In this document: piece by piece, positions 11,018 to 62,763 of the stretch | Numbering within the stretch: the first letter of the stretch is position 1 | Layout of the letters: each line of letters begins with the position of its first letter | From: a virus | IMG/VR virus record: IMGVR_UViG_3300005529_000023 | Coordinates: 62,001-126,000 of that record | Strand: one strand, 5' to 3' | Length of the DNA stretch: 64,000 nucleotides | The notes under the pieces: model-generated | Databases searched by the model: none | The model's input: only the letters and a program-made list of their open reading frames with translations | What the model was told of the DNA's origin: nothing | Made by a program: the position numbers and the translations under genes

Positions 11018-12186
11018 TAGAGAAGACCCATCGACTTCAGGAACTCTTCATCTGACTGTTGAGCAATCGACTGGGCCGATGTCTTTGTGTCAGATAGAGT
11101 AGTTACCTTTGGAGCTTGTGGTGCCGCCATTGTTTGGGCGACCTGAGATGTAGCAGCTTGAGCCGCTGGAGGAGTAGCCGCTGCCGGAGCTGGAGCAGCT
11201 GTCGCCTGAGTAGCAGGAGTTGTTGGCGCCGATGCAGGTGCGCTCGCCTGAGTTTGAGCCGCAGGAGTTCCTGTGGTCCCATATTCATCTTCAATATCAG
11301 CATCTGGCTCCTGATAGGTTTGGCCAGTAGCCTGGGCAGCAGCCGTAGCCTCATTCTTTTTGTCAAGAATTTCATCTACTGCCTTCTCCCCTTCCTTCAC
11401 AATCCTTGCCACTTCTTCAGCCGTAGGCTTCTTGAAGAGAGAATCGAGACGTGCGGCTTCCTTATACAGAAAGCTTCCATCCTTATTACGAGTGAGGCAG
11501 CGAGCAGCGATGTCGTCAGTAATCGAATGAACGATGTCCTGTTCGACGGTTCCGAGACCTTCGACATGAAGCTGCTTCTTCTTTACTTCGACCTGATAGA
11601 CGGTCTCAAGAGCGTTTCCAGATCTTCTGAAGGTGAAGAAACGGCCATTCTCAGGCGAAAGAGGTTCAATTTGCTTATCGCGAAGGCCCTTGATTGTCGC
11701 CTGGAGAGCAAGCATTGCACGATGGCGAATCTTAAGAATGCCGATATTGCCCTGCTCATCAATGACGTTGAGATAGTGGTTGCTATCCAAGTTGAAACGA
11801 GATTTCGAACCGCCAACAAGCTTAAGTAGCTTATCCGCCAATTCCTTATTGCCTTCAGCCTTAGCCTTTTCTAGTTCGGCCTTGAGCTGATTGATGCGAT
11901 CAAGGGCGGGATCTGGAACCTCGATCATCTTTGTCTTGCGATTCTTGACCAAGGGACTCTGGAAGGTTCTCATCTCGCCCTTAGAATTCTTGTATCCGTA
12001 ATGGATATTGTAGAAGACGCTCCAGCGGCCTTCCGCAGCTAGGTCTCCCATTGGAGGAAGAATTCGAAAGGTAGATTCGCCGTCTTTCAGCTTGAACCAC
12101 TTCCTCTTGACGAACTCTCCGCCGAACTTTGCGGCGCCGAACAGATTTGTATTACTTGGATTTGTATTACCCGATTGATTGCTCAT
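11017..12186 (-). CDS. gp32-like single-stranded DNA-binding protein
   Basis: The 389-aa protein begins with a short tail, then WFKLKDGESTFRILPP near residue 30, which matches the gp32 core start. An OB-like core extends to about residue 230. A long Ala/Pro/Thr/Gln-rich linker follows (residues 275-365), ending in DEEFLKSMGLL, the kind of acidic amphipathic tail that SSBs use to bind partners. It would coat ssDNA at forks and during recombination. Confidence 0.8.
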   Translation of the reverse strand: MSNQSGNTNPSNTNLFGAAKFGGEFVKRKWFKLKDGESTFRILPPMGDLAAEGRWSVFYNIHYGYKNSKGEMRTFQSPLVKNRKTKMIEVPDPALDRINQLKAELEKAKAEGNKELADKLLKLVGGSKSRFNLDSNHYLNVIDEQGNIGILKIRHRAMLALQATIKGLRDKQIEPLSPENGRFFTFRRSGNALETVYQVEVKKKQLHVEGLGTVEQDIVHSITDDIAARCLTRNKDGSFLYKEAARLDSLFKKPTAEEVARIVKEGEKAVDEILDKKNEATAAAQATGQTYQEPDADIEDEYGTTGTPAAQTQASAPASAPTTPATQATAAPAPAAATPPAAQAATSQVAQTMAAPQAPKVTTLSDTKTSAQSIAQQSDEEFLKSMGLL

Positions 12187-12197
12187 ATTTATTCTCC

Positions 12198-12494
12198 TTA
12201 GTTAAAAACTTTGATTTCTGTGTTGTTATCAACATCGAGAAGCGCTTTTGCTTCTGCCGAATCTCTGGCTAGTCCCTTGTAGTTACCAACGTCGGCGGTC
12301 TCATCGTACATGGCTAGATCACCATCATACGTGATTGGCTCTAATACGAGGCCGTATTCGTACTTCACGACTGCGAAATAAGGAACCTTCACCATCAAAA
12401 TGATGTTCTCCCCGCTAGGTGAGTTTCTGCAATCATAGACTGCGAAAACAGTTTCCGATGCAGAGATAATGTTGATTGTTTCTCTATTGCTCAT
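12198..12494 (-). CDS. Hypothetical protein, 98 aa
   Basis: Small, beta-rich and acidic protein with no recognised family. It lies 11 bases upstream of the SSB gene and is probably cotranscribed with it. Confidence 0.6.
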   Translation of the reverse strand: MSNRETINIISASETVFAVYDCRNSPSGENIILMVKVPYFAVVKYEYGLVLEPITYDGDLAMYDETADVGNYKGLARDSAEAKALLDVDNNTEIKVFN

Positions 12495-12513
12495 ATTATT
12501 CCTTTGACTCGAT

Positions 12514-13290
12514 CTACTTTTTTAGCGAGTCGCTGATTTGTTTTAGTGCTTGTTCAACAGATTCATTTGTTGGGTCTTTGACATAGGCAGATGGTCCGGC
12601 AGCCTTGATAGCTTTGGAAATCTTGCCTGCGCCTACCAAAAAGACTCTAGAAGATACCTTCGCAAGGCCGTTGATTACTTCTAGGGCAAAAGCGTCGTCG
12701 CCCGTGGGCAACAGAATTGGGGTTGTAGAACCTTTGTGGCCAGCGCTGATCGCCTTATTCGTAAGATTCTGAACTGCGTTGATAGCTACGATCTCTGGAC
12801 CAACGCGATCGTTAATGACCGTTCTAATAAAGGTCAGGAAATCTTCGTCTTTAGTGATCGTACGACGATACTTCTCATTGAAAAGGAGCTGATTGTACTC
12901 GGTGACATCGAGTTCGCCCATCTTCTCTTCGAGATGACGGCCAAGGATATCGTGAAGGGCTGTGTTGCTCTCGCGTTTGACATCTGAAACTTTTGTAATC
13001 CTATTGGCGAGATCCTTATAGAAACTCTCTGGATCATCAGAGAAACAACCGAAACTCTCTGTTGCCGTGGAAACGAATTCATTCCTCTTGTCACCGACGA
13101 CGAGGATGTAAGCAGCGGTCGTGCGAAGCTTGTTACGATAGTCTCTCTTGAGCCTCTTGAGGCTTTCGATTGCCTGCGCCTTGCGGCCACGACGAGCATT
13201 CAAAGTTTCGATGAACTTCGTTTCGTCGATGGTCTCTTCTGCGAGTGGCTGTACTTTCTTGATTTCTTCTAGGGTCGTGTTTAATGACAT
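12514..13290 (-). CDS. Hypothetical protein, 258 aa
   Basis: Helical, charged protein. The C-terminal segment SSRVFLVGAGKISKAIKAAG looks like a small Rossmann-type turn but lacks a full motif. Function unknown. It belongs to the SSB transcription unit. Confidence 0.65.
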   Translation of the reverse strand: MSLNTTLEEIKKVQPLAEETIDETKFIETLNARRGRKAQAIESLKRLKRDYRNKLRTTAAYILVVGDKRNEFVSTATESFGCFSDDPESFYKDLANRITKVSDVKRESNTALHDILGRHLEEKMGELDVTEYNQLLFNEKYRRTITKDEDFLTFIRTVINDRVGPEIVAINAVQNLTNKAISAGHKGSTTPILLPTGDDAFALEVINGLAKVSSRVFLVGAGKISKAIKAAGPSAYVKDPTNESVEQALKQISDSLKK

Positions 13291-13301
13291 GAGTTCTCTC
13301 C

Positions 13302-13454
13302 TTAAGTGCGGTCTTGTAAATGCTCACCTTGTAGAATGTGAGCCTTTTGTTCGTGGATTTCGTTCGCCACGTAGTTTTCAGCTTCTTCCAGGGAATCAAA
13401 TTCATCCCAGTACAGGTCAGCGCTCTCTGTCATGTAGACAACGATGAATTTCAT
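13302..13454 (-). CDS. Small hypothetical protein, 50 aa
   Basis: The translation begins MKFIVVYMTESADLYWDEF and contains a charged amphipathic helix. The start codon overlaps the stop of the upstream gene (ATGA), as at most gene joints here, which supports it as a real gene despite its size. Confidence 0.6.
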   Translation of the reverse strand: MKFIVVYMTESADLYWDEFDSLEEAENYVANEIHEQKAHILQGEHLQDRT

Positions 13455-13690
13455 TTTTCATACCCCAAGTATTTCCTCAAATCCCTGATCGTCTTAAAAC
13501 GCTTCTGGAATTCGGCAGCTTCTTTGTTGCCTTCGTAGGTATCTTGAAAACTTTTTTGTACGACCAGTTTACCATCTTCGGAGGAGAACTCAACGAAAAT
13601 TCGACCGGACATTTCGTTTTGCAGCACTTTGAGAGTTAGTTCTTTATCTAGCTTCTTTTTCTTGATTACTCTATTTTCAAAGTTCGCCAT
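13451..13690 (-). CDS. Small hypothetical protein, 79 aa
   Basis: Basic protein with a Lys-rich N-terminus. No family recognised. The extended -10 at 13697-13705 ends 6 bases before the ATG and no ribosome-binding site is present, so this is a predicted leaderless transcript start. Confidence 0.65.
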   Translation of the reverse strand: MANFENRVIKKKKLDKELTLKVLQNEMSGRIFVEFSSEDGKLVVQKSFQDTYEGNKEAAEFQKRFKTIRDLRKYLGYEK

Positions 13691-13696
13691 TGTAGA

Positions 13697-13705
13697 CCTA
13701 TATCA
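13697..13705 (-). promoter_or_regulatory. Extended -10 promoter, TGATATAGG
   Basis: TG-A-TATAGG on the minus strand lies immediately before the 79-aa gene. No clear -35 is seen. It is one copy of the recurrent TGATATA motif. Confidence 0.55.
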
Positions 13706-13707
13706 CA

Positions 13708-14454
13708 TTACTTCGATTCAGAGACTATTTTTCCAGTCGCAATTGCAGTTGCCTGACTGGTGCCTGTCATCGTAATTCCATAAGCAGTAACATCCTCTCC
13801 AACTTCCCATCGAGTTACCCCGATACCATAGTTAGAAGTGGCCGAGCGGCACTGATCATTGGTTAGTTTGCACTTTGCTTTCTTTCGATTCCCGACCACA
13901 ACAATCCGTGGATCGTATACAGCTGGGTAGTAGTGGTTTTTAACAAGATCACTATGCTCATTTCCTGCAGCGGCAATAAACTTCCCGCCTTGATTCAGAA
14001 ATTTTTCAATAGCATTGTACTCTTCGAGATCAAAGTTGGGACCGCCACCAGAGTAGTTGATGAATTTAGCTTTGATGTTGGTCGCATACTTGACTGCACG
14101 AGTAAACGAATTCAAATTCTGCTGTCCGGTGTGTTTCTCAGAAAAGTACTTCAAAACGACAATGCAATAGTTCTTCTTCGGGCCGGCGTATTGGTCGATA
14201 ACTCCAACGATGTTGGTTCCATGGGAATTGAGATCCACTGGAATTGGATCTGCAGTACCGTAGTCTTTGGAAAATTTCTTATCAGCGCTAAAATCCTTAT
14301 GTCCGTATTTGCACAAATTTGCTTGGTGCCCTAAGTTCTGGAAGCCAAAGCCGGTATCGATAACTGCAACTGTTATTGGTCCTTCGCAATATGCGCTTGT
14401 GCCAAATAATCCCGTGAGGGATGTAAATAGGACTATTAGGGAAAATAGCTTCAT
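13708..14454 (-). CDS. Secreted subtilisin-like serine protease (S8)
   Basis: The catalytic triad is visible: AVIDTGFG (Asp), NSHGTNIVGVI (His) and MTGTSQATAIATGKIV (Ser), with the oxyanion AAAGNE between. The N-terminus MKLFSLIVLFTSL...SAYC is a signal peptide, so the enzyme should act in the periplasm or outside. At about 248 aa it is a minimal catalytic domain with no propeptide. The start is placed at MKLF because a consensus promoter ends 7 bases upstream. Host-surface or lysis-related proteolysis is inference. Confidence 0.85.
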   Translation of the reverse strand: MKLFSLIVLFTSLTGLFGTSAYCEGPITVAVIDTGFGFQNLGHQANLCKYGHKDFSADKKFSKDYGTADPIPVDLNSHGTNIVGVIDQYAGPKKNYCIVVLKYFSEKHTGQQNLNSFTRAVKYATNIKAKFINYSGGGPNFDLEEYNAIEKFLNQGGKFIAAAGNEHSDLVKNHYYPAVYDPRIVVVGNRKKAKCKLTNDQCRSATSNYGIGVTRWEVGEDVTAYGITMTGTSQATAIATGKIVSESK

Positions 14455-29383: not shown

Positions 29384-30262
29384 TTACCAGTACATAGGAA
29401 CAACTTGCTTCTGCTTGTTGTCGAACTGTTCCTTGAACTTTTTGATCATATCTACTTTTTGTTCGCTGGTGTAAATTACCTTACCCTCTGGAGCAACAAT
29501 TTTGATGTTCATTGGACTCGTATTAAGAGGGCAATTGTCGAGATCGTAATGAATCTCAACTCCAAAGAAATCGATTGAATGGGTCGTAGCGCCAGCAAGC
29601 GTTTCATCGCACTTCACAAGAACTACGCGATCAGCATAGCCTTCAGTGACAGCCTGGGTGCCAGTAAGCCACATCTCATCTGCGTACTCTTTCTGATAAC
29701 TCTGTAGTGTTTGCTTACCCTTAGTTCTCTTAACCGTCTGCTGATCAAGTTCGGTGAGACGAGACATCCAAAGCTTGTATCTGCTCTCGATCTGACTTGG
29801 CGATGGTCCACCGAATGCACCAACAAACTCACCAGCCGCTCTATGGCTCATCAAGACACCGTTCTTAAGAACGAGACGATCGCCAAGGTTCTGCGCAATT
29901 TGGAATCCCATGCTTGCAGCAAATAGAGTAACAGTGTGAATAGAACGACCAAGGCCGTTAAGGGCTTCAATCATCTCAAGGCCAGACTGAATGCTTCCGC
30001 CTGGCGTGTTAAGGAAAAGATAAAGAGGCTTCTTCTCGCCCTTGATCTTGGACTTCAGGGTATTGAGTCCCCTATCCAGTTCCTTGGCGTTGGCAATGAT
30101 CTTACCAACACTTGCGCCGTCAACTTCTTCATTCAGAACTAAGGTGTTATCCTTAGAAAGTACAACGGTTTCAGTCTTCTCTTCGCTGTCGGTCGATTTA
30201 GATGGCGTCGCCGCAGCGATCAAAAACGCCAATAGTACTACTAGTACCCTATTTAGTTTCAT
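29384..30262 (-). CDS. ClpP/SppA-like serine protease with signal peptide
   Basis: MKLNRVLVVLLAFLIAAATPS is a signal peptide. The mature part shows NTPGGSIQSGLEMIEAL, FAASMGFQIA with the nucleophilic Ser, LMSHRAAGE with the catalytic His, and a C-terminal AVTEGYADRVV, all typical of the ClpP/crotonase fold. An extension of about 80 residues follows. It should act in the periplasm or at the membrane like SppA, independent of ClpX. Its own promoter and a good ribosome-binding site (AAGGAGA) precede it. Confidence 0.8.
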   Translation of the reverse strand: MKLNRVLVVLLAFLIAAATPSKSTDSEEKTETVVLSKDNTLVLNEEVDGASVGKIIANAKELDRGLNTLKSKIKGEKKPLYLFLNTPGGSIQSGLEMIEALNGLGRSIHTVTLFAASMGFQIAQNLGDRLVLKNGVLMSHRAAGEFVGAFGGPSPSQIESRYKLWMSRLTELDQQTVKRTKGKQTLQSYQKEYADEMWLTGTQAVTEGYADRVVLVKCDETLAGATTHSIDFFGVEIHYDLDNCPLNTSPMNIKIVAPEGKVIYTSEQKVDMIKKFKEQFDNKQKQVVPMYW

Positions 30263-35518: not shown

Positions 35519-37291
35519 ATGTCATCTCGCAAGGCAAAGAGCGCACCTAAGATTTTTGAAATCGATTCGAAAACGCTCAAGAAGAAAGTACTTGATACAA
35601 TGCATAGAGTATCTGAAGCTGTGGGCCGCACTATGGGTCCAGGCGGAAGAAACATCCTGATCGAAAGTGATTACCCAGGTATCCCAAACAAGAACACTAA
35701 AGACGGCGTGACTGTTTTTAAGAGTCTCGGCGCAATCGATGCCTACGAGCACCTTATCATCGAACAGGCTCGCGACGTTGCTCAAAGAACTGCAACAGAA
35801 GCCGGCGACGGCACTACGACAGCTACAGTACTTGCCTACTCCATCATTGATAATCTTTTTGAGTTCTGCGAAAAGAATCCAAAATACAGCCCTCAAAAAG
35901 CCGCACGACGCATCACAAAGGTCACGGATGACCTACTTATTCCCTTCATCGAATCGCGCAGTATCGCAATTGGTGTAGAGAACAAAGACATGCTCAAGAT
36001 GGTGGCTACTATCTCTGCTAACGGAGATTCGGACATGGCCGCTGCCGTAATCGATGCCTTTGAACAAATTGGCTACGGGGATTCCTCGCACGTCACAATT
36101 CGCGAGCTAAGCGGCAAGAAGGGTTACAAGGTCGAGCGCATCGAAGGATTTCCAATTGCGGTAGGCTTCGAAGAGTCTATCGGCAAACTCCATACTGCGT
36201 TTATCAACGATCAAGCCAATCAGCGCTGCTACCTGGAGAATCCCTTGTTTCTTCTCTACGATGGAAACGTGAACGATCTAGTCATGTTCATTCCGCTCAT
36301 GGAATCGATCGGCAACAAGTTCGTTACCGAAGGAAACAGCGACTTCAAGAATCTCGTAATTTTCGCTCACGGATTTAGCGAGAATGTACTCACGCAACTT
36401 GCATTCAATTTCTCAAACCCAAACACGATCAATGTTTTACCGATGATCACTCCTATGGCCCAATTTCTCAACAGCCAAACTCATTTCCTCCATGATTTGG
36501 CTGCATTCACTGGTGCCAAAGTATTTGGTCTGAAGGATCAAGTCTCACAAGCCACGCTATCAGACCTGGGCCGTGGTATGGAGAGCTTCGAAGCTTATCG
36601 CTTCAGATCTACTGTCATCGGCGACCCTGACCCCGTTAACGTCGAGGTCAGGGCCGAAGATTTGAAAACCATGATGGAAAATGCGGAAAGCCAAGCAGAA
36701 AAGATCCTGCTTGAGGAACGCATCGGCAAGATCACAAACGGTATTGCCAAACTGACCATCTATGGTGGCTCAAATGGCGAGTTGAAGGAAGCTCACGATC
36801 GCTGCGAAGACGCAGTTTGCGCAGTTCGCTCTGCGATCTCACACGGCGCCCTTCCCGGTGGATGCCGAATGGCCATCGACATGGCGATTAAGCTCATGCA
36901 GGACATTCCCGAAGGAGATCCTGCCCGAGAAGTGCTGGTCCCCGCACTTTTGTCGCTTCCAAGCAAACTCCTAGATAACGCTGGTTACGACAAAGAAGAG
37001 ATCAATGATGTTATCTCCAAGCTTGTCCAAGACCAGGATACTGTCTACGATATCGAGAACCAAAAGTACGGAAAAGCTGAAGAACTTGGCCTATTTGACG
37101 CTACTAAGGCAGTTTCTGAGTCACTAAGAAATGCAGTTTCGATCGCCTCGGTTCTAGGAACCATGGGCGGCCTTGTTTGCCATCCTCGCGATGATGTTTT
37201 CGAACGTGCCGAAGCAAGGTTGGACTCTGAGTACATGCGTGCGACAGAGAATCCCAACCAATTTATCAACGAAGCTAACGAACGCCCTTAG
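35519..37291 (+). CDS. groEL: GroEL-like chaperonin
   Basis: The 590-aa protein shows the chaperonin core: GRTMGPGGRNILIE, TKDGVTVFKS, AGDGTTTATVLA (ATP-binding) and ISHGALPGG. It is longer than bacterial GroEL (about 548 aa), with the extra length in the apical/intermediate region, and lacks the GGM repeat tail. Phage chaperonins fold capsid and other proteins. Position just before the packaging and head genes suits that role. Confidence 0.9.
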   Translation: MSSRKAKSAPKIFEIDSKTLKKKVLDTMHRVSEAVGRTMGPGGRNILIESDYPGIPNKNTKDGVTVFKSLGAIDAYEHLIIEQARDVAQRTATEAGDGTTTATVLAYSIIDNLFEFCEKNPKYSPQKAARRITKVTDDLLIPFIESRSIAIGVENKDMLKMVATISANGDSDMAAAVIDAFEQIGYGDSSHVTIRELSGKKGYKVERIEGFPIAVGFEESIGKLHTAFINDQANQRCYLENPLFLLYDGNVNDLVMFIPLMESIGNKFVTEGNSDFKNLVIFAHGFSENVLTQLAFNFSNPNTINVLPMITPMAQFLNSQTHFLHDLAAFTGAKVFGLKDQVSQATLSDLGRGMESFEAYRFRSTVIGDPDPVNVEVRAEDLKTMMENAESQAEKILLEERIGKITNGIAKLTIYGGSNGELKEAHDRCEDAVCAVRSAISHGALPGGCRMAIDMAIKLMQDIPEGDPAREVLVPALLSLPSKLLDNAGYDKEEINDVISKLVQDQDTVYDIENQKYGKAEELGLFDATKAVSESLRNAVSIASVLGTMGGLVCHPRDDVFERAEARLDSEYMRATENPNQFINEANERP

Positions 37292-39575: not shown

Positions 39576-40181
39576 ATGGAAGCTTATATTTACAAAATCA
39601 CTAATAAAATCAACGACAAAGTTTACATTGGTCAAACAGTTCAGAAGCTCAATAAGAGATGGAGCGAACACTGTCACAATGCAAGTAGCTGTAAAGTTCT
39701 CAGAAGTGCAATTCAGAAATATGGCCCAGAAAACTTTGAGATGACACCGTTACACATTATTCATGGAGATGACAAAACGCTAATTAGAAAAGAGTTGAAT
39801 GTCTTAGAGATGCAAGAAATAAAATCACATTCTTCTTTGATCCCCCATGGATACAACATACTGAAAGGTGGGAATACTTCTCCTGGTAGGCGATGGAAAG
39901 TGCCGCCATTTCAGGGAAGAAAACACACGGAAGAAACAAAGCAAAAAATTGCTAAAGCAAACGTTGGACTCAAACGCCCCTGGATGCTCGAACATGCTCA
40001 TAAAATGACCGAGCAAAGAAAAAGACAGATTGTCTGCAATGAAACTGGTCAAGTGTGGAACTCGATCAAAGAGTGCGCAAAGAGTTTCGGGGCTAAGCCA
40101 GAAGCTGTCCACAGAGTACTTAGAGGAAAACGTAAGCATTTCAGAAAACTCACCTTTTCCTATTTTCCAAAGCAATCTTAG
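39576..40181 (+). CDS. GIY-YIG homing endonuclease
   Basis: YIYKITNKINDKVYIGQT at the N-terminus is the GIY-YIG motif, followed by KRWSEH and YGPENF. The C-terminal part has GRKHTEETKQKIAKAN (NUMOD3-like) and an ETGQVWNSIKECAKSFG helix-turn-helix (NUMOD1-like). It is a free-standing selfish gene between TerL and the head genes. Its composition is more AT-rich than its neighbours. Confidence 0.9.
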   Translation: MEAYIYKITNKINDKVYIGQTVQKLNKRWSEHCHNASSCKVLRSAIQKYGPENFEMTPLHIIHGDDKTLIRKELNVLEMQEIKSHSSLIPHGYNILKGGNTSPGRRWKVPPFQGRKHTEETKQKIAKANVGLKRPWMLEHAHKMTEQRKRQIVCNETGQVWNSIKECAKSFGAKPEAVHRVLRGKRKHFRKLTFSYFPKQS

Positions 40182-44930: not shown

Positions 44931-45204
44931 GCAGGCCGTTTATAGTCGTCGTTTAACCCACCGAGACGGTTATGGCGTATTCTAGCACTGAAGGCTTTTG
45001 GCACCTGCTAAAAGGCTAGGTCGGCAAAGAGATTCTCGGCCTCTTTGCCGACCTATCGACTTCTTACCTGCCTACACTCTAGAGAGGCGGAACCAACTCC
45101 ACGTCTTCCGGGGTTTCAAATCCCGGCGTGCTTTTGGCTTGCAGGCCAGGTTCCTGGCAGGCGTGGGACGGTCTGCAAGAACCGTGATTATCCCACTTTA
45201 AATT
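44931..45204. other. Non-coding structured region beside tRNA-Met
   Basis: No supported frame. It holds a perfect 15-bp inverted repeat with 9-base loop (45017-45055), CACG-TCTT-CCGGG with a T-loop-like TTCAAAT loop (45100-45130), GCCAGGTTCCTGGC enclosed by TTGCAG/CTGCAA, and GTGGGA/TCCCAC around CGGT/ACCG. Plus-strand head genes and minus-strand tRNA-Met converge on it, so part may be a two-way terminator. It may also encode structured RNA. Confidence 0.5.
45017..45055. repeat. Perfect 15-bp inverted repeat with 9-base loop
   Basis: The arms start TAGGTCGGC and end GCCGACCTA. There is no T-run on either side. It could end transcription from both sides, protect RNA 3' ends, or be part of a structured RNA. 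Confidence 0.75.
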
Positions 45205-45606: not shown

Positions 45607-45853
45607 TTGCCCTCCAAAACCTAATCAGTGAAACGACCTTCTTTCTATCGGCAACGATAGCCCCATGGATGATAGCCAGCGCTATTTTTGTTCTACAAAT
45701 ATCGTAATGGGGTGTGCTGCCCGGTTGAAACCACTTCCTGGCGACACCGATCTTATCCGCCATAGCGTGCAGCTCTTCTAAGCTGTCCGCTAGCATGTGG
45801 CACATGATCATGCCACGATAATGAGCCTGCATGGTATCTACATAGACGCTCAC
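45593..45853 (-). CDS. DUF4031-family protein
   Basis: The pattern MCHMLADSLEELHAMADKIG...WFQ...PHYDI...ALAIIHGAI matches the small DUF4031 family seen in phages and plasmids. A GTG start that overlaps the ABC ATPase stop (GTGA) fits better than the longer frame. Length 86 aa. Function of the family is unknown. Confidence 0.75.
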   Translation of the reverse strand: MSVYVDTMQAHYRGMIMCHMLADSLEELHAMADKIGVARKWFQPGSTPHYDICRTKIALAIIHGAIVADRKKVVSLIRFWRANATT

Positions 45854-46671
45854 AGATTCTTGAACTCTTCTTTCACTTCCCTTACGAAGTCGTAAAATCT
45901 CGAAGTCTTCATGATCTCTGGATGCCAGCACAAATCGCGTTCGATCAAGTTGTATTCCTTCATGATCCTGGAACCGGGAATCTTGGTTCCATCTGGTGCG
46001 GAGTCCCTGCCCATGAGCCAAAGATGATTGGAGATCGAGGCCGCTGCAGTGATGTCATGAGTAACAACAATGATAGTGTTCAGCTCATCCTTACTGGCGA
46101 GTTTGTTCAAGAGCTGACATGTCTTGTCGAGCATTAACGGATCAAGACCGGAAAACGGTTCGTCCATGAGCAGGAAATGCTCGGAACATAACGCTTGCTG
46201 AATAATTGCACATCTCTGCCTCTGACCACCTGAAAGCTGGGCGGGATAGTGATGAGCTTTATCAATCAGATTGAACTCGTTAAGGTACTCCACCACCTTT
46301 TCGCGTGCGATCTTCGAATTGCTTTCATTCTGCATGGCCGAAACCATAAGGTTAGAAAAGACAGTACGATGATCAAAAAGGGGATAGCTTTGAGCAACTA
46401 CACCGACCTCGCCAGCGATCACGGATCTATCTTTCTCATTGATACAAACCTTGCCGGAAGTAGGTTTATTCAGACCCGCAATGATCCTAAAAAGTTGAGT
46501 TTTTCCGATACCCGATGGACCAAGGAAACCGACTACTTGACCCGGCTTTTTGCCTGTAGAAGTGAGGATATTCTTGATTTCACCGTTGACGTTCTTAAGA
46601 ACCGGCTTACCATCATATTCCAGGCAGACATTTTCGATTCTAAGAAGAGACTTACCAAGTGAGTAGTTCAT
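45850..46671 (-). CDS. ABC transporter ATP-binding protein (NitT/TauT type)
   Basis: All ABC motifs are present: Walker A GPSGIGKTQ (near residue 51), Q-loop VVAQSYPLFD, signature LSGGQRQRCA (near 147), Walker B LLMDEPFSGLD and the switch His VVTHD. The C-terminal 70 residues are an extension. It would power the permease encoded at 46962-47744. Complete ABC importer parts are very unusual in phage genomes. Confidence 0.9.
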   Translation of the reverse strand: MNYSLGKSLLRIENVCLEYDGKPVLKNVNGEIKNILTSTGKKPGQVVGFLGPSGIGKTQLFRIIAGLNKPTSGKVCINEKDRSVIAGEVGVVAQSYPLFDHRTVFSNLMVSAMQNESNSKIAREKVVEYLNEFNLIDKAHHYPAQLSGGQRQRCAIIQQALCSEHFLLMDEPFSGLDPLMLDKTCQLLNKLASKDELNTIIVVTHDITAAASISNHLWLMGRDSAPDGTKIPGSRIMKEYNLIERDLCWHPEIMKTSRFYDFVREVKEEFKNL

Positions 46672-46674
46672 TTA

Positions 46675-46965
46675 TTAAACTATGAAAGCAATGCTCCCAT
46701 AGCCCTCCGGTTCATCAACTTGTTTCATGCTTCCATCTTCTTGCATCATGAGCCAAATACGATTCTTACTCTTTGGCCACTCATGACCAAACTGTCTTTC
46801 TTCGATCACCGCGCCTTCGTACCATCCGGCTTCATCACAAAAAGACATCTTTTCTCGGGCTTCTTCAGCTGTCTTCCAAATCGTCTGAAGATGCATTCTC
46901 TCAAAACCGTAGTTTTGGCCTCTCTTATCGAATTTGAAGAAGCCTACCAAGAATACTGACTTCAT
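46675..46965 (-). CDS. Hypothetical protein, 96 aa
   Basis: A start at MKSVFLVGFF overlapping the permease stop (ATGA) is preferred to the longer frame. Soluble alpha/beta protein with no family recognised, placed between the permease and ATPase genes. Confidence 0.65.
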   Translation of the reverse strand: MKSVFLVGFFKFDKRGQNYGFERMHLQTIWKTAEEAREKMSFCDEAGWYEGAVIEERQFGHEWPKSKNRIWLMMQEDGSMKQVDEPEGYGSIAFIV

Positions 46966-47744
46966 TTTCTCTCCGTGGTCAGGGTAGAGTAAGGGCAAAA
47001 TACATTCTTGAGTATGCCGATGGCGTAGTCTTGACCGAGACCGACCAACAGAATTAAGAGCTGAATCGCCATAACTGAACTCAGATGGAAGTGCTTATTT
47101 TGGTTCAGAAGAACCGCCCCGATTCCACCTTCGCTGCGCGACATACCCTCGATCATAGTCAACATCATCCAGCCGATGGCTGCGTTCTGTCTTAAGCAGT
47201 CGAAAACCTTATCGGCCTGCCCGAGAACAATAACTTCCCAAACTTCACGCCAGGCACCCATTTTAAGTGTCTTGGCCAAATCAAACTGAACATTGGGGAT
47301 TGAAGCAAGCACGTCTAACATGCTAGTTACAAAGAACACCGCGATAGAGTAGACGAGTAAGTATAGTTTCAATTCATGGCCGCTTTTAGCCGCCATCGTG
47401 AAGAAGAAAGTGAGACCTGCCAGGGACAGGAAGCGAAGCTTCCCAAAGAAAGCGATGATCGGTTTGAAGAAAGGGATGACACTCAAATAGGCCAATCCAA
47501 TGGATGCTAAAAGGGCGATGCCGATAGCCTGAAGGTTCAAGTAAAAACTCGTAATCAGCTCAGATCCGAGTCCTTCTTGCCAAAGTTCTCCAAAGGAATG
47601 CAGGGTTTCGCCTGGGCTTGGCAGAAACACGAAATTCGAGGAAGCCCAAAACAGGAATAGGCCGATCACCTGTGCTACGACCAGTAGCGTCCCAGTAGAC
47701 TTGGATAAAACTTTGTTTGGTGAAAAGATCTCTAAGAACTTCAC
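46962..47744 (-). CDS. ABC transporter permease (NitT/TauT type)
   Basis: The 260-aa protein has about six hydrophobic segments (residues 18-38, 65-90, 95-112, 128-148, 190-210, 228-250). The cytoplasmic loop FDLAKTLKMGAWREVWEVIV is the EAA coupling loop of SsuC/TauC-type permeases. It would sit in the host inner membrane with the ATPase. Confidence 0.85.
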   Translation of the reverse strand: MKFLEIFSPNKVLSKSTGTLLVVAQVIGLFLFWASSNFVFLPSPGETLHSFGELWQEGLGSELITSFYLNLQAIGIALLASIGLAYLSVIPFFKPIIAFFGKLRFLSLAGLTFFFTMAAKSGHELKLYLLVYSIAVFFVTSMLDVLASIPNVQFDLAKTLKMGAWREVWEVIVLGQADKVFDCLRQNAAIGWMMLTMIEGMSRSEGGIGAVLLNQNKHFHLSSVMAIQLLILLVGLGQDYAIGILKNVFCPYSTLTTERK

Positions 47745-48142
47745 AGATTTAATCCAATCCCAAAACTAGCAGAAAAGCTAAATGTGCCTGAATAGAGTAG
47801 GCTGTTGTTTTCTTTTATATAGACCAGGCTAGAAAGATTCTGCTGCCAGCCAGCCTCGGGACCAAGAGCGTACACTGCTGATCCATCTGTCCTAGAAAAA
47901 GTGATCGCTTGAGCAAATCCCACGTTGATGTGTTCGCCCTGAATACCAAAGGAAAGATAGGGTTGAATGTAGCTGGAGTTTCCGGTCAAAGAGATGTCTG
48001 CATAAGGCCAATCTTTTACGAACTCATAATCAAAGCCGTAGAAAGGTCTCGTTCCGTTACCAAAGCCTGCGTCTAAAGCCATCATGTCCGCTTGAGCGAC
48101 GAGTGGAACCATCGTCAAAAGCAGGATCGCCAGAAACTTCAT
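47741..48142 (-). CDS. Exported beta-barrel-like protein
   Basis: MKFLAILLLTMVPLVAQA is a signal peptide. The mature 115 aa is rich in alternating aromatic and polar residues (FYGFDYEF, SYIQPYLSFGI) and ends in a hydrophobic strand with terminal Leu, as in small outer-membrane barrels. No family recognised. It lies between the substrate-binding and permease genes. Confidence 0.65.
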   Translation of the reverse strand: MKFLAILLLTMVPLVAQADMMALDAGFGNGTRPFYGFDYEFVKDWPYADISLTGNSSYIQPYLSFGIQGEHINVGFAQAITFSRTDGSAVYALGPEAGWQQNLSSLVYIKENNSLLYSGTFSFSASFGIGLNL

Positions 48143-48163: not shown

Positions 48164-48192
48164 GGGGCACCCGTTAATCAGACGGGTGCCCC
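48164..48192. repeat. Perfect 11-bp stem-loop between substrate-binding and barrel genes
   Basis: GGGGCACCCGT and ACGGGTGCCCC with a 7-base loop and no T-run. In many ABC operons such a hairpin after the binding-protein gene stabilises its mRNA or lowers downstream expression, and that role fits here. Confidence 0.75.
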
Positions 48193-48200
48193 GAATTGGA

Positions 48201-50015
48201 CTACTTAACCAGAGTGATCTCGACTCGGCGATTCGCAGCGCGACCCGCAGAAGTCGAATTTGAACTCACAGGCTGCATGGAACCATGTCCACTGACCCTA
48301 AAGCGAGAGCCAGGGAAGTTGCTCGGAGCAGCCTGCTGCAAGAAGCTCTTCACCGCCTGAGCGCGAGCGATAGACAGAGGAAGATTGGTCTTCTGTTCAT
48401 CGCCGGTATTATCGGTGTGACCATCGATTCTGATGTTCAAGCCGGTAATAGCGAAGTTGTCCTTAAGGAAGTTCAGCTGACGAATGCCTTCCGCCGTAAG
48501 AGTAGCCTGCCCAACGTTGAAGTTAATACTATACGAGCGCGTGGAAACGACCGTATTACTACTCGAAACGTCGAAGGTCGGAGTATCAGCGGCAGCGCCC
48601 GATGAATCGGCCACGGCCTGAGCACCAGTCACGAAGGACTTGTCTTCGATATCGCGAACTTCGGGAAGCGGGGTATCCTTGAACAGCTCGCCATACTGCT
48701 GCATGACGATACTGCCGAACAGGGTGTACGTGGACCTGAAGTTGTCGTTCACGCCCGGACGAAGTCCGAACAGAATGACATTGTCTTCCAGACCATTCAC
48801 CGCCGAACCACCGAGTGAAACTTGGTTTCCTTCGCGATCCGTTTCGGTCACGCCCTTATAGTAACGATACCAGTAAGCGGCGTCCTGGTCATTGTACACT
48901 TTAGCTGAGATCTCAGCTGCCTTGTACAGCGCCTTGTCATAAGCACGAACTTGGTCGCCACCTTCGAAAGCGCCCGCAAGAAGGTTAGTGACCTCATCGC
49001 GATTGGTATTGAAGAAGGTGCGAGAGCCAATAATGACCGCAGGCATCTGAGAACGATATTCCTTCGAAGAGACGATCTTGATAAGGCCGCCCTTATTCTT
49101 GAATGCCGTCACGTCGCCAGGGGTCCAAGTGACCACTGAGTCGATGCAAACGTGCTTGGTTTCGCCCGTAGGATGGCCGTCCTTGACTACACGACGATCT
49201 TCGCACTGACCAGCAACGTACATTTCTGCTGCCTTATTGTAGTCAGGAGCGTTGACCCAGTTGATCGCGTCGGGATCATAGGTCTTCTCATCCGGGTTGT
49301 TCTTGATGTTGTTATCGCCAGCCCACTTGAGAGCGATATTCCAGTCGCCATCGCGAATAACGCCCGCCGTGAGCAAGCCCTTGGCGTTCTGAGGGTTATT
49401 CTTAACGCGAGGAGGAACCATGAAGGAGTCCTCACCACGACTGTAACCGACAGCTCCGATCACGACGAGAGAATCATTCAGCTTCTTCAGCTGGGGATTC
49501 ACTGCAGCCGCGAACTGAGCGCTACCGTCACCCATAATGACGACGAAGTTTGCCCCGGTAGAGCACTGCTTAGCACCATCGTGGATCTCCTTTGCACAAG
49601 CGAGGAGGTCTTCCTGCATCTTATTGGTGTCATCCTGGCGAGTAAGCTGGAGGTTCACCTTACGTTTTTCAAGCAGCGAGCCACGAGTCGTGGTGGCGCC
49701 ACCGTTGGCATACAGGAGACCCATCTGAGCGTTCCACTCCCAAATCTCACCACGAATGAGGGTGTTGGCCACAGATGCTTCGGAAGTCCCAGGAAACGGA
49801 GCCGGAGCCACGTTTTGAACCTGAGCGTCCTTGAGTTCAGGCAGCTGGACTTGGCTCGGGATCAGAGACTTAACGATACCCGGAGTCGGGATCACGCCAA
49901 GTTCTGCGCCCTTGCGAAGGCCAAAAAATGCTACCGCACATACAAACACAGTGATCAGGAGCTTCGCAAGAAGCGTGGCCCGGCCACTTTCATCGTTCCA
50001 GATATCAGTTTTCAT
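48201..50015 (-). CDS. Substrate-binding protein fused to an OmpA domain
   Basis: The 604-aa protein has an N-terminal membrane helix (LLITVFVCAVAFFGL, residues 18-33), a long periplasmic alpha/beta region (60-470) resembling NitT/TauT-type binding proteins, and a C-terminal OmpA domain (about 495-604). The latter includes FNVGQATLT, RIDGHTDNTG (Asp) and GRAANRRVEI (Arg), the meso-diaminopimelate-binding residues. It would link inner membrane, ligand and peptidoglycan. It is encoded with an ABC permease and ATPase. Confidence 0.85.
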   Translation of the reverse strand: MKTDIWNDESGRATLLAKLLITVFVCAVAFFGLRKGAELGVIPTPGIVKSLIPSQVQLPELKDAQVQNVAPAPFPGTSEASVANTLIRGEIWEWNAQMGLLYANGGATTTRGSLLEKRKVNLQLTRQDDTNKMQEDLLACAKEIHDGAKQCSTGANFVVIMGDGSAQFAAAVNPQLKKLNDSLVVIGAVGYSRGEDSFMVPPRVKNNPQNAKGLLTAGVIRDGDWNIALKWAGDNNIKNNPDEKTYDPDAINWVNAPDYNKAAEMYVAGQCEDRRVVKDGHPTGETKHVCIDSVVTWTPGDVTAFKNKGGLIKIVSSKEYRSQMPAVIIGSRTFFNTNRDEVTNLLAGAFEGGDQVRAYDKALYKAAEISAKVYNDQDAAYWYRYYKGVTETDREGNQVSLGGSAVNGLEDNVILFGLRPGVNDNFRSTYTLFGSIVMQQYGELFKDTPLPEVRDIEDKSFVTGAQAVADSSGAAADTPTFDVSSSNTVVSTRSYSINFNVGQATLTAEGIRQLNFLKDNFAITGLNIRIDGHTDNTGDEQKTNLPLSIARAQAVKSFLQQAAPSNFPGSRFRVSGHGSMQPVSSNSTSAGRAANRRVEITLVK

Positions 50016-50040: not shown

Positions 50041-51066
50041 TTATTGCAGTACGTTCTTGAACTTGCCTGACTTTGCAGGAACGGCAACTTTCTGCGGTTC
50101 CTTAGCAAAGTCCACGACCTGGGTGGGATCGTAAGCCTGTGAAATCAACACAGCCTTGTCGGTTCCCAAGAGAGCGCTGCTACCGCTCTTTTCCCATTGC
50201 TCAAGCATTTTAAGCGCATCATCCTGGATGACACCCTTTTCGAGGTCCACACCCTTGATGATACCCTGAGAGAGGTCCATGATGTCGTCGATCTCTGCCA
50301 ACTGCTTGTTCGCAGTTTCAGCAATATTCTCCATCGCGCGATTGAACATCTCAGCTTCAGGGCCACTGCCGCCGATAACCTTCCATCCTTTGACCATACC
50401 CGCATGGGCAGCCATGATGGCTTTTCTTTCTTCCTTCTTGATCTCAAGTTCGCTGCGCGTCTTCTTGATGTTGAAATCGACGGTCGAAACCATCTTGTCA
50501 AGCACGCGATACATGAGTTCAATCTTGTTCTTCGTCTCAGTGAGAGACTTATTAGACAGTGTCAGCTGTTGAGCTTCGAGAGCCATCAAGGTTCGGCCCT
50601 GAACATCGCCCTGCTTTTCAGCCTGCTGAGCCATCTTAAGGTCTCTCTCAGCGCGATCTGCATTCGACTTGATCTTAGCCGTGAGACCCTTGAGTTGGCC
50701 ACCGACTTCGGCCTTACTTGACGACATCTCGTCCAAGCGAGACTGCATGATCTTGATGCTGGTCTCGATGACACCGATTGGATCTTGGTTTACGATGGCA
50801 TATCCAATTGCTCGGGTGAGAGACTTCCAAGCGTAGTACACCGCCGTGTGGACGTTCTTGTCTAGGGCCGCGAAAACCAAGGCCGCAAGAACTCCCATGA
50901 GGAAAACTGCGTAGATCGTGTTGGTCGCAGCCAAAATCACGAACGGCAGAAGATGGATCGCAGCGTAAGTCAGAAGTGCCGCCAAGGCCAATCCAACCAC
51001 GGGAGCGCCAATGAAGTTTTCACTCTTCTTCCACCAAGGCTTTCTCGAAACAGTCGTCGTATCCAT
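50041..51066 (-). CDS. Membrane-anchored PspA-like coiled-coil protein
   Basis: Two hydrophobic segments (residues 19-45 and 50-68) are followed by QDPIGVIETSIKIMQSRL and a long coiled coil (95-225), which recalls the PspA/IM30 layout, and then a helical tail. Length 341 aa. It is probably part of the envelope machine encoded by this operon. The PspA link is by eye. Confidence 0.6.
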   Translation of the reverse strand: MDTTTVSRKPWWKKSENFIGAPVVGLALAALLTYAAIHLLPFVILAATNTIYAVFLMGVLAALVFAALDKNVHTAVYYAWKSLTRAIGYAIVNQDPIGVIETSIKIMQSRLDEMSSSKAEVGGQLKGLTAKIKSNADRAERDLKMAQQAEKQGDVQGRTLMALEAQQLTLSNKSLTETKNKIELMYRVLDKMVSTVDFNIKKTRSELEIKKEERKAIMAAHAGMVKGWKVIGGSGPEAEMFNRAMENIAETANKQLAEIDDIMDLSQGIIKGVDLEKGVIQDDALKMLEQWEKSGSSALLGTDKAVLISQAYDPTQVVDFAKEPQKVAVPAKSGKFKNVLQ

Positions 51067-51089: not shown

Positions 51090-51734
51090 TTATTGCAGAT
51101 ATTGACCAATTTTGTCAATGTTTGTTTTGATCGTATTCCTCAGAGTGTCAAGAGTGACACTGAAGGCAGCCTTTCTGGAATCAAGCTTCGCCTTTTCGGC
51201 ATGTAATTCCTGAGTCAGCGTAGCGCTGTCCTCGGTCAGCTGACTCAGCTGCTTTTTAAGGTCGGCGATCGTAGATTCGACCTTGGCTAACTTGGCTTCA
51301 CGGGCTTGGACCTGAGCCCTCTCGTACTCCGCGCAGTCGGCATTGAAATCATTTTCGTCCTGGTTCAGCACATCGATATAATGCTGGCCAGACTTGAGGA
51401 GGGAGTTCTTGTCCACGCCAAGCTGCTTGGCCGTGGAAAACGTCACCTTGTAACAAGCTTCCTCGGCAAGACCCGTAGATTTGGTTTCCTGGACCGCAGA
51501 AATGAACTTGAGATAGTCGAAACCGGCCAGCTTGTTTTCCTCAAGCGACTTGGTCAACATCTCGTTGAGTGCAGGGTCGATACTCGGGGCCGGCACCGAG
51601 AAACTGAATGATGTAGAGGAAGGGATCGGAGTTCCAGTGGACACGTTGGTTGTGGCAGTTGGTGCCGCAGGCTTGGCCTTCGCAACCGGCATATCGTCTT
51701 CAACCAAACCAAGCTTCGTCAGAAAGTTCTTCAT
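51090..51734 (-). CDS. Cytoplasmic coiled-coil protein, 214 aa
   Basis: A Thr/Ser/Pro-rich linker (residues 15-55), a helical domain and a long C-terminal coiled coil (135-214). No signal peptide. First gene of the envelope operon, with RBS AAGGAGATAGCATG. Probably a partner of the membrane coiled-coil protein. Confidence 0.65.
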   Translation of the reverse strand: MKNFLTKLGLVEDDMPVAKAKPAAPTATTNVSTGTPIPSSTSFSFSVPAPSIDPALNEMLTKSLEENKLAGFDYLKFISAVQETKSTGLAEEACYKVTFSTAKQLGVDKNSLLKSGQHYIDVLNQDENDFNADCAEYERAQVQAREAKLAKVESTIADLKKQLSQLTEDSATLTQELHAEKAKLDSRKAAFSVTLDTLRNTIKTNIDKIGQYLQ

Positions 51735-52751: not shown

Positions 52752-53216
52752 TTAAAAAACTATTCGTTCAACGTCGATCTCTCGTAGCAATTTGCCAATT
52801 TTTATAAATTCTTTATGTGTAAATTCAGAAGATTTCACTCTATTACATCTTCCGCAACAAACTACCAAATTGCTATATTCGTAATCTATTTCGTTGTTGA
52901 TTCTATCCAAATTGTAAGCCGTAGTGTTCCACGAAACTAGTCCGCTGCAATAGAAACAATCATTTTGAGCCACAAAATCTAGAAATTGTTCGTAGGTAAT
53001 GAAAACTTCCCTATTAGATCTTTTCGCTTCTCTGCATAAAACTCTGAATAGACTTTCATAGGGTCTCAAGGTTCTCTTTTTAACAGCTGCCGCATTAGCT
53101 ATTTTGTGATTTCTCCGACCTAAACATTTTCTACAAACACCAGTTTGACCTTTGTTTTTGGTAAATCTTTCATATTTGCAATCTGGACATATTATCAAAT
53201 ATGGTTTACGCGGCAT
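52752..53216 (-). CDS. HNH endonuclease
   Basis: Two CxxC zinc sites at the N-terminus (CPDC, CRKC) and an HNH core with CFYCSG, YNLDRINNE and LVVCCGRCNRVKSS. The gene is clearly more AT-rich than its neighbours, which suggests recent arrival as a free-standing homing endonuclease between the ligase and phosphatase genes. Confidence 0.85.
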   Translation of the reverse strand: MPRKPYLIICPDCKYERFTKNKGQTGVCRKCLGRRNHKIANAAAVKKRTLRPYESLFRVLCREAKRSNREVFITYEQFLDFVAQNDCFYCSGLVSWNTTAYNLDRINNEIDYEYSNLVVCCGRCNRVKSSEFTHKEFIKIGKLLREIDVERIVF

Positions 53217-57917: not shown

Positions 57918-59456
57918 TTACACCTTTGCTCTAGCCCTAACTTCCTCAAACGTAGTTGCGTTGAGGATCTTACCGTTCTCGAAGATCGGAACCAACATGT
58001 CGCCAGACATCTCGTGATCAAGAGTCAGTCCATCTGTGTAGTTGATCTTCCCGTTAGCATCCTTCCAAACAGCAACCTTACCCTTTTGGCTCTTCTTGAT
58101 CCCGTCATCGGTCTTAGGATTCTTGAAGATCTGCTTCTCTTTTCCGTTGATCACGCACGCAGTAGACTTGAGTGCGAAACCAAAAGTATCTCGGGTGTTG
58201 TATTGATAGGTGTACGAACCAATCCCGAAGACTACGTTGATCGAAGCGAAACCCTTGGCTTTAAGCCTATCCATAATCTCTTTGGCGCGATTGAGTGTGA
58301 TCGCATCACCGTAGATCAGGCCAATATGGGAGTCAAGCAGGCAGTAGCCATTGGCGGTGACAGTTCCACCGAAGATATCCCAAAGAGCTTCGACGGCGCC
58401 TTTATGTTGAAGGCTTCCCCTCGGAGCATCGGGATCGCCGCAAACGATAAGGACTGGATCTCCTGAGTCAGGACGAATGACTACTTTGTCGAGACCGATC
58501 GGGCTGCCCTTGCGAGCGAGAATGTCCTTCTTGAGAGCAGGAATCACTCGTCCGATCACATCCCAAAAGTCGTATCCATCGGAAACGATCGACACTGGAC
58601 CGCTAGGATGAACGACATTGATGAGAGTTCTCAAATATTCCATGTCGTCGCCATAAGCGCACTGGATGCTGTGCTCGGAAGCAGGAATGGAAGTTCCAAC
58701 GAGTTCCTTTTCGATGTTAGCCTTGTAGTAGTACTCAGCTGAGGAAATCGACGGACACGTATCTGTTCCAGAGAACTGAGTCAGATGGCCCATGCCAGTG
58801 AGCATTCCAGCGTGAACACCCATCATTCCTCTCATCGAGAAATCATGGCCTTGGAACATCACAAAGCCCGTATCACCGACAGTTTCCATTGCTGCCTTAT
58901 TGAGGATCTTACGATACTCACGAGCGATGGTAGCTGCGGTGTAGCAAGGCCACAGTTCGCAGGAGGCCAAAGTCTCGATGTAGTTCGTGAGCCAAAAGAA
59001 TCGGGGATCGGTGTTCTGGATCGTGAGAACTGGCGTACGAAGAGGAACAACCGTTCCTTCTGGAAGTGCCTTGATGAGCAAGGGCAGATAACCCAAGTCA
59101 TGAAGCTCTTCAAGATGCTTCGTTTCAGGGTTTTGATCGCCGAGAGTAAATTTCACGAAGCGAGTGTACTCCGCGAGCACTTCTTGCTTATTTCTCTTAA
59201 AGAAGTTCTTGTTGAAGTAGTCGATCAAGAACCTCTTAGTGAAAGCCTGATTACCGAAAACGGCGACTTCACAGACATCCTTCATGCGCGTAGCGCGAGG
59301 AGTCCAAGTGGAGTACACGAGCTGCGTTCCCTTGGGATACATCGGCCTGTGTGCGAGCTTGTAGAAGTCGCACAAAGCAGCTGCCAAAGGCTCAAATTCG
59401 CCCGGCGTGTTTAGGGGAAACTCCATACCAATATCGTGACTGTAGTAGTTGCTCAT
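57918..59456 (-). CDS. Nicotinamide phosphoribosyltransferase-like protein (Nampt/NadV or Namat)
   Basis: The 512-aa protein has the Nampt layout: FYKLAHRPMYPKG at the N-terminus, FQGHDFSMRGMMG near residue 200, TSIPASEHS near 255, SIVSDGYDFWDVI near 290, VVIRPDSGDPVLI near 322 and INVVFGIGSYTYQYNTRDTFGFA near 415. Canonical Nampt makes NMN from nicotinamide and PRPP. In the phage NARP1 pathway a homologue (Namat) instead joins nicotinamide to ADP-ribose pyrophosphate. The Prs-like gene next door makes that option worth testing. Confidence 0.9.
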   Translation of the reverse strand: MSNYYSHDIGMEFPLNTPGEFEPLAAALCDFYKLAHRPMYPKGTQLVYSTWTPRATRMKDVCEVAVFGNQAFTKRFLIDYFNKNFFKRNKQEVLAEYTRFVKFTLGDQNPETKHLEELHDLGYLPLLIKALPEGTVVPLRTPVLTIQNTDPRFFWLTNYIETLASCELWPCYTAATIAREYRKILNKAAMETVGDTGFVMFQGHDFSMRGMMGVHAGMLTGMGHLTQFSGTDTCPSISSAEYYYKANIEKELVGTSIPASEHSIQCAYGDDMEYLRTLINVVHPSGPVSIVSDGYDFWDVIGRVIPALKKDILARKGSPIGLDKVVIRPDSGDPVLIVCGDPDAPRGSLQHKGAVEALWDIFGGTVTANGYCLLDSHIGLIYGDAITLNRAKEIMDRLKAKGFASINVVFGIGSYTYQYNTRDTFGFALKSTACVINGKEKQIFKNPKTDDGIKKSQKGKVAVWKDANGKINYTDGLTLDHEMSGDMLVPIFENGKILNATTFEEVRARAKV

Positions 59457-59652: not shown

Positions 59653-60432
59653 TTAAGCTTCACTCTTCTCGCCATCGCGAGTGAAGACACGTTTGATGCC
59701 TGATTCATGTAGGGTCTTCACACCGCGTGAGAAGATCCCGTGAGTGACAAAGAGATTTACCTCTTTTGCACCTGCGGCCAACAGGTCTTTGGCCAACAAC
59801 TTGAAGGTGGCGCCACCATCGCAGATATCGTCTACAATTAGGACGTTTTTGCCGGCGCAATCACCGATAACTTTGTAACTGAGAATGTTTCCACTGAGCT
59901 GATCGCGAACTTTTTCACCGTAAATGTGCGGCCTGAAACAAGTAGAGTAAACCTTCGAGTACTTGGTCAGCGCACCCTTGTCTGGATAGCAGAAAATTGT
60001 GAATGCGCCGTTTTTGTCCATTTCTTGAGCAACTTCTTCGACCTTCTTAACAGGGTAGATGGCTTCAGCGGAACAACTCGGACGAACAGCGTCCCAATTA
60101 TGGGGATCGTGAATGATCAGATGATTGACGAATGTGAATGTGTTGAAGAGTTTGAAAAAGGTCTTGAGTGCAAAACAACTATCATTCGCTATCGGCTTGT
60201 CTTGGCGAGCATACGGCAAATAAGTAATTTCGATCTCGCTTTGAACAGCAAGGGTGTCGAAGAGATGAAGAAGCTGGAACAGCTGCATCACTTCTGCTTC
60301 ATTCGAATATTGCCAGAGAATTTTTGCTGGATTGGAACGAGAACCAGTGAGCGGTTCGGGAAGTTTCCAGACCTGGGAGGTCTTATCGGGGAAAACCGTA
60401 ACATTCAACGGTTGACCGTTTAGGTAAATCAT
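59653..60432 (-). CDS. Ribose-phosphate pyrophosphokinase-like protein (Prs or Adps)
   Basis: The PRPP-synthetase pattern is clear: ITYLPYARQDKP near residue 69, IIHDPHNWD near 103 and VLIVDDICDGGATF near 198 (PRPP-binding loop). At 259 aa it is shorter than cellular Prs (about 315). It could make PRPP for the Nampt-like enzyme, or act like Adps, which adds pyrophosphate to ADP-ribose in NARP1. Confidence 0.9.
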   Translation of the reverse strand: MIYLNGQPLNVTVFPDKTSQVWKLPEPLTGSRSNPAKILWQYSNEAEVMQLFQLLHLFDTLAVQSEIEITYLPYARQDKPIANDSCFALKTFFKLFNTFTFVNHLIIHDPHNWDAVRPSCSAEAIYPVKKVEEVAQEMDKNGAFTIFCYPDKGALTKYSKVYSTCFRPHIYGEKVRDQLSGNILSYKVIGDCAGKNVLIVDDICDGGATFKLLAKDLLAAGAKEVNLFVTHGIFSRGVKTLHESGIKRVFTRDGEKSEA

Positions 60433-62250: not shown

Positions 62251-62706
62251 CTATAAGATTAACTTGTTGTTCTTTTTGCGATTCTCATCTGCGGATAAGT
62301 ACTGAAGATTCCAAGGAACATGTAGTCCACAAACATCTCTGCCACGTAAAGGAACTATGTGATCTACGTGAAAACCCACTGGACAACTGTCATATATCGC
62401 GGAAATCTCTTTCTCGAAATTCCCAATAGTAGCCTTGAGTTGGATAGCACGTCTTTTGGCTTGATTTATCCTATGTTTATGTTTTCTCACTGGATTCTGA
62501 AAATATTTTCTATCCAATTCCCTAAGTCTTTCTGAGTTATTTTCTTTCCATTTCTCTCGTCTTAACGAATATTTATCCTTATTTGGTTTGTAATAAATAT
62601 CTATAAAACAGGGCTTACAGACAGAAGTCCTTCCAAACTTTCCCTTCTTTTGCTTATTAAATTGATCAAGCTCTTTTTCTAAACCGCAATTTTTACAAAT
62701 TTTCAT
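62251..62706 (-). CDS. HNH endonuclease
   Basis: CKNCGLEKELDQFNK and CKPC form an N-terminal zinc finger. VDHIVPLRG...CGLHVPWNLQYLSADENRKKNNK is the HNH core. The start MKICKN is chosen over a longer frame because it begins the conserved finger. It sits directly upstream of the prohead-protease-like gene. Confidence 0.85.
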   Translation of the reverse strand: MKICKNCGLEKELDQFNKQKKGKFGRTSVCKPCFIDIYYKPNKDKYSLRREKWKENNSERLRELDRKYFQNPVRKHKHRINQAKRRAIQLKATIGNFEKEISAIYDSCPVGFHVDHIVPLRGRDVCGLHVPWNLQYLSADENRKKNNKLIL

Positions 62707-62763
62707 ATGTAGAAGATTCGTTCTTGTGAATACGTAGTTAAAGAATTTACAAACTTGCATCAT

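Follow-up and report, generated by a model that had tools for sequence, protein, structure and literature searches.

A phage-borne fusion of a solute-binding protein with an OmpA-like domain lies in a conserved module with ABC importer and putative PspA/Vipp1-like genes

The question raised by the locus analyzed here is why a virus should encode a solute-binding protein (SBP) joined in a single chain to an OmpA-like peptidoglycan-binding domain. The window, i.e., the whole stretch of 64,000 nucleotides subjected to computational analysis (positions 62,001 to 126,000 of IMG/VR record IMGVR_UViG_3300005529_000023), belongs to a virus record of 176,870 bp and encodes a portal protein, a terminase large subunit, head-protease-like and endolysin-like proteins, a DNA ligase, and a DnaE-type polymerase. 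The first-pass annotation of this DNA, made from the letters and their translations, recognized the architecture of the fusion protein, the fold of its middle part, and a hairpin after its gene, but it missed the phage genome, the PspA/Vipp1-like operon, and the earlier description of such a fusion in bacteria.

The SBP-OmpA gene (positions 48201-50015, minus strand) starts with ATG and is uninterrupted over 604 amino acids. Its AlphaFold model, built on 68 homologues (mean pLDDT 90.9, pTM 0.74), displays the three-part chain that had been claimed: a membrane helix at residues 15-38 (49902-49973, minus strand), a mixed alpha/beta part at residues ~84-470 (48606-49766, minus strand), and, after a short flexible linker in which the model confidence is lowest (residues 473-479), an OmpA fold at residues 489-604 (48204-48551, minus strand). 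The N-terminal helix is a probable uncleaved signal anchor, and an N-terminal segment with mean hydropathy above 1.6 is found in 56 of the 68 homologues. The OmpA domain is recognized by Pfam PF00691 at residues 499-596 (E 1.3e-15, 58 bits versus a cut-off of 27.2), and Foldseek matches the C-terminal part to TagL, OprF, and Acinetobacter baumannii OmpA (3td3/3td4/3td5), of which 3td4 represents the complex with diaminopimelate. Two residues of this domain, D535 and R551, are invariant in the alignment of the 68 homologues, and they presumably hold diaminopimelate, as the corresponding Asp/Arg pair is known to do in A. baumannii OmpA.

Residues 60-470 matched no family in Pfam, PHROGs, NCBIfam, or PDB sequence searches. 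In Pfam and NCBIfam, OmpA families alone matched the protein, with no curated binding-protein family among the hits; a PHROGs search using the 68 homologues matched it in the OmpA part only, and BFVD contained no catalogued viral SBP-OmpA protein, returning OmpA proteins and weak PBP2_Bug matches. The middle part is identified solely by its predicted structure. In the structural comparison that the first-pass annotation had named as able to refute it, the proposed bilobed TauA/SsuA-type fold was borne out by Foldseek matches to TauA (6ssy, TM 0.75 by target length, E 9e-9), SsuA (2x26, 3ksj), NrtA (2g29), CmpA (2i48), and a thiamin-binding protein (4nmy), and the earlier label "binding-protein-like" is therefore correct. 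Homologues that share this architecture over their full length were found in dozens of independent contigs, viral as well as bacterial, so the fusion is not the product of a chance read-through or an assembly error.

The binding domain has the bilobed fold in common with TauA, SsuA, NrtA, and CmpA, whereas it shows only ~10% identity to them, has no Pfam hit, carries an extra membrane helix and the OmpA domain, and contains acidic conserved motifs (RQDD, MGDG, SRGED, DGDW, and WTPGD). Numbered along the chain, the conserved positions comprise W94-N95, R126-x-D128, M161-GDG, and S192-x-GED, followed by DGDW and TWTPGD; the AlphaFold model places them at strand ends and helix starts, where the ligand sites of TauA/SsuA-type binding proteins lie. 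With so many invariant acids, the ligand may be cationic, metal-assisted, or rich in hydroxyls, and a plain oxyanion seems less likely. A membrane helix or anchor combined with an OmpA-like peptidoglycan-binding domain is also the plan of MotB/PomB, TssL/TagL, and Pal-type wall anchors; in contrast to these, the middle domain of the window protein is a solute-binding protein and not a plug, a linker, or a secretion part.

The minus-strand run to which the fusion gene belongs encodes, in order, a coiled-coil protein, a 341-aa protein with two membrane helices, SBP-OmpA, a 133-aa protein, a permease, a 107-aa ORF, and an ABC ATPase. The coiled-coil protein (214 aa, 51090-51734, minus strand) is the first gene of the module, a place that it retains at 35 of the 38 viral loci, and belongs to a family that matches the bacterial cc8 family in a profile comparison (96%, E 2e-9). 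The ABC ATPase (45850-46671, minus strand; Pfam ABC_tran 8.8e-26) has an intact Walker A, Q-loop, LSGGQ, Walker B, and H-loop, and the Walker and signature motifs are intact in all 36 viral copies, with the H-loop pattern present in 34. The permease (46962-47744, minus strand) is probably of the binding-protein-dependent type, with an EAA-like loop: BPD_transp_1 is matched by six of the eight family members tested (best 5.8e-7), whereas the window copy itself has no Pfam permease match and yields weak NCBIfam matches to SaoP (2.8e-4) and TauC (7e-3). Two further genes of the run are not conserved in the module, namely the 107-aa ORF between permease and ATPase (46675-46998, minus strand) and the 133-aa exported-looking protein between SBP and permease (47741-48142, minus strand). 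The latter, which has a signal-peptide-like start and a beta-rich look, matched no family in Pfam or PHROGs and is absent from the neighborhoods of two compared loci, L003 and L039.

The 341-aa protein (50041-51066, minus strand) consists of two N-terminal membrane helices followed by a long helical hairpin resembling that of PspA/Vipp1 proteins of the ESCRT-III superfamily. Its match to Pfam PspA_IM30 (E 0.067, 13.2 bits) lies below the cut-off of 33.9, and the sequence profile of the family gave coiled-coil noise only against the PDB. Profile-profile alignment of the family with true PspA proteins encoded beside bacterial copies reached 91% (hhalign, E 1e-6 over 79 columns), and the top Foldseek matches of its model (pLDDT 72) were Vipp1 structures 7o3w and 7o3x, with a probability of 1.00 but an E-value of 0.009. 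A PspA/Vipp1-like protein is thus the best assignment, weak by sequence and short of proof. A TelA identity considered for the 368-377-aa proteins of a second phage clade was dropped, as no Pfam match was found.

Homologue scans recovered 36 loci on viral contigs and a further 64 in bacterial genomes; with the huge phage record LR756500 (462 kb) and the window, the viral set comprises 38 loci. Of these, 35 share one gene order (coiled coil, PspA-like protein, SBP-OmpA, permease, ATPase), with SBP identities among module phages falling to ~31%. Two of the exceptions meet a contig end, and the third, L004, differs upstream. At that locus (L004:5734-7692), an FtsH-like AAA protein with an M41 peptidase (Peptidase_M41 1.3e-17) replaces the coiled-coil and PspA-like genes upstream of SBP-OmpA. 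A terminase (E < 0.001) was detected in 11 of the 30 carrier records tested, including records of 152 to 463 kb. Bacterial copies are found in Acidobacteriota, Armatimonadota, Myxococcota, and Bacteroidota, and their gene orders are undercounts, since high-GC loci yield spurious antisense ORFs in gene calls. Some of these copies adjoin a true PspA and an AAA+ ATPase; the operon at L050, for instance, runs from cc8 through PspA (Pfam 3.3e-15), SBP-OmpA, permease, ATPase, and a helix-rich protein to an AAA+ ATPase (1.1e-20), and its SBP-OmpA is 47% identical to the window protein over residues 21-602. At two loci, L039, a relative from Acidobacteriota, and L092, the five-gene form lies amid F420-cofactor-like genes (identities read from sequence), which marks these loci as chromosomal.

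In a midpoint-rooted tree of 67 viral and bacterial sequences, the two kinds are intermixed, with seven label changes, at least six of which are forced by well-supported branches, and a single viral clade is rejected (p 1e-73). The window clade is nested with Acidobacteriota, and the second large phage clade adjoins a Bacteroidota sequence (L100); as the root is a midpoint, the directions of transfer are deduced rather than read directly. On the reading that we favor, phages captured the five-gene module from Gram-negative hosts several times, Acidobacteriota being the most likely source for the window clade. Among phage copies, dN/dS was 0.04-0.19 in ten pairs, not all of them independent, indicating purifying selection.

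Directly after the SBP-OmpA stop codon lies the hairpin noted in the first-pass annotation, a perfect 11-bp stem with a 7-nt loop (48164-48192, minus strand; -24.4 kcal/mol, z -5.7). It has no T-run and is therefore not a standard intrinsic terminator; that role was ruled out for the window hairpin, although several relatives do have a T-run. When perfect stems of at least 8 bp within 100 nt past the stop were counted in dereplicated phage loci, they followed the SBP gene in 14 of 27 loci, compared with an expectation of 1.6 for shuffled sequences; for each of the four other module genes, the count was between 2 and 4 among ~26 loci. With three G-C pairs required, stems were found after 12 of 27 phage SBP genes, compared with 20 of the 396 other genes at these loci (Fisher p 3e-8); these statistics include related phages, so the loci are not fully independent. 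Stem sequences vary between clades, which points to conservation of position rather than of sequence. The recurrence of the hairpin supports a separate dosage of binding protein and permease, and it is not evidence of the excess of binding protein suggested earlier; the expression level of the SBP gene would probably differ from that of the permease through the hairpin.

Several other features of the window and of related loci may be recorded. A 15-bp perfect inverted repeat (45017-45055) lies just past a tRNA-Met gene at the end of the minus-strand run and probably marks a transcript end. Adjoining NAMPT-like (57918-59456; Pfam NAPRTase 1.8e-39) and PRPP-synthetase-like (59653-60432) genes on the minus strand form an NAD-salvage-like pair, and at L003 ORFs for NMNAT-like and NAMPT-like proteins come immediately after the ABC ATPase gene (11483-13832). 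A GroEL-like chaperonin gene (35519-37291, plus strand; Cpn60 3.3e-34) adjoins the terminase and portal genes. ClpP/SppA-looking proteins are encoded at 3131-3790 and 29384-30262 (minus strand), the latter with a signal-peptide-like start that suggests a periplasmic protease. ORFs resembling GIY-YIG or HNH homing endonucleases were noted at 39576-40181, 52752-53216, and 62251-62763, one of them between the terminase and portal genes.

Among described systems, the nearest is a PBPB+OmpA protein reported in bacterial PspA/Snf7-AAA-ABC operons, with OGG56892.1 as an example (Ravi et al., 2024; PMC11237479). These operons, like that of the window, combine an SBP and OmpA in one chain with an ABC ATPase and a permease, and they contain a homologue of PspA or of membrane-bound Snf7, to which the putative PspA-like protein of the window would correspond; the module of the window differs in residing in phages and in the absence of an adjoining AAA+ ATPase, no match to which was found among the scanned neighboring genes. 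The AAA+ ATPase is an optional partner in the published description and does not define the fusion protein (PMC11237479). Being homologous over its full length to bacterial copies that have these neighbors, the window protein is classed with the PBPB+OmpA kind, its link to OGG56892.1 being one of description. The fusion alone was thus already known in bacteria, and what is new here is its repeated carriage by phages, which was not found in the literature searched, together with purifying selection on the phage copies and the recurrent hairpin after the SBP gene. PspA-like proteins have also been described in phages, namely a PspA homologue (phrog_1203) of Kuttervirus SeF3a (PMC9409062) and a pspA-like gene of Jug phages (PMC12363816); the accessible parts of these two reports describe no transporter or SBP-OmpA partner, and the PspA-like protein of the window additionally has two membrane helices compared with the proteins as presented there.

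We consider it rather probable that the genes were acquired from hosts and constitute a module for envelope maintenance and uptake, in which a wall- and membrane-anchored importer works beside a PspA-like protein; the same functional idea was proposed by Ravi et al. (2024) for the bacterial operons (PMC11237479). SBP-OmpA would be the solute-binding subunit of a type I ABC importer, anchored by the inner-membrane helix at one end and by the OmpA domain on peptidoglycan at the other, a span from membrane to wall that is suggested by the order of parts in the chain. The binding domain would probably be held at a fixed height above the permease, much as MotB fixes the stator, and the importer would act beside the membrane-bound PspA/Vipp1-like protein and its coiled-coil partner. 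By keeping the module, phages may maintain or protect the host envelope during infection while a small solute is imported. The same gene set in the same order in at least 35 virus fragments suggests that phages with the module gain by shoring up or feeding the envelope of the infected cell. A bolder form of this proposal, which we put forward as speculative and on balance unlikely, is that large phages have repeatedly acquired machinery for membrane repair, in which an ESCRT-III-like protein is coupled to a wall-anchored ABC system. Such machinery would keep the host inner membrane energized and sealed through long infections or against membrane-permeabilizing defenses, and it would be the phage's own counterpart to the phage shock response of bacteria.

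The presence of a complete importer (binding protein, permease, and ATPase) could also be read more simply, as a set of auxiliary metabolic genes for the uptake of a limiting solute, comparable to cyanophage pstS, with the PspA-like protein merely traveling along. To our knowledge, Pst importers employ a binding protein of another family and have neither a wall anchor nor a PspA-like partner. Phage-borne pstS and whole pst clusters, which likewise unite a binding protein with ABC importer genes, provide a precedent (PMC10987575). However, a wall anchor is unnecessary for uptake, and the coiled-coil and PspA-like genes have retained their place in the order at 35 of the 38 viral loci despite the divergence of the SBPs to ~31% identity, whereas mere hitch-hikers should have been lost; we regard pure nutrient uptake as possible but doubtful. 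The PspA-like partner lends itself to a different account, in which the module seals the inner membrane against membrane-permeabilizing abortive infection or prevents the DNA of rival phages from entering, the SBP serving as a sensor or scaffold and not in transport. A related role, guarding the proton-motive force against abortive infection, is proposed for phage PspA in the accessible part of the SeF3a report (PMC9409062). Strong conservation of the ATPase motifs and of the SBP motifs at strand ends would be expected if transport is real, and its observation makes such a counter-defense or superinfection-control function improbable in our view. That the module is bacterial DNA misfiled as viral, or inert chance cargo, might be suspected from its close chromosomal relatives (L039 and L040) and from several short viral contigs with no detected terminase; yet terminase, portal, and head-protease matches surround it in the window, terminase-bearing carriers reach 463 kb, dN/dS is well below 1, and carriage is repeated, which leaves this explanation with very little probability.

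Carriage of the module by phages would link ESCRT-III-like membrane remodeling to phage-host conflict or to phage feeding. In phages of up to ~460 kb, the complete module is present with a single fixed gene order, apparently after several captures, and what the PspA-ABC operons do in bacteria may thereby become testable through infection phenotypes.
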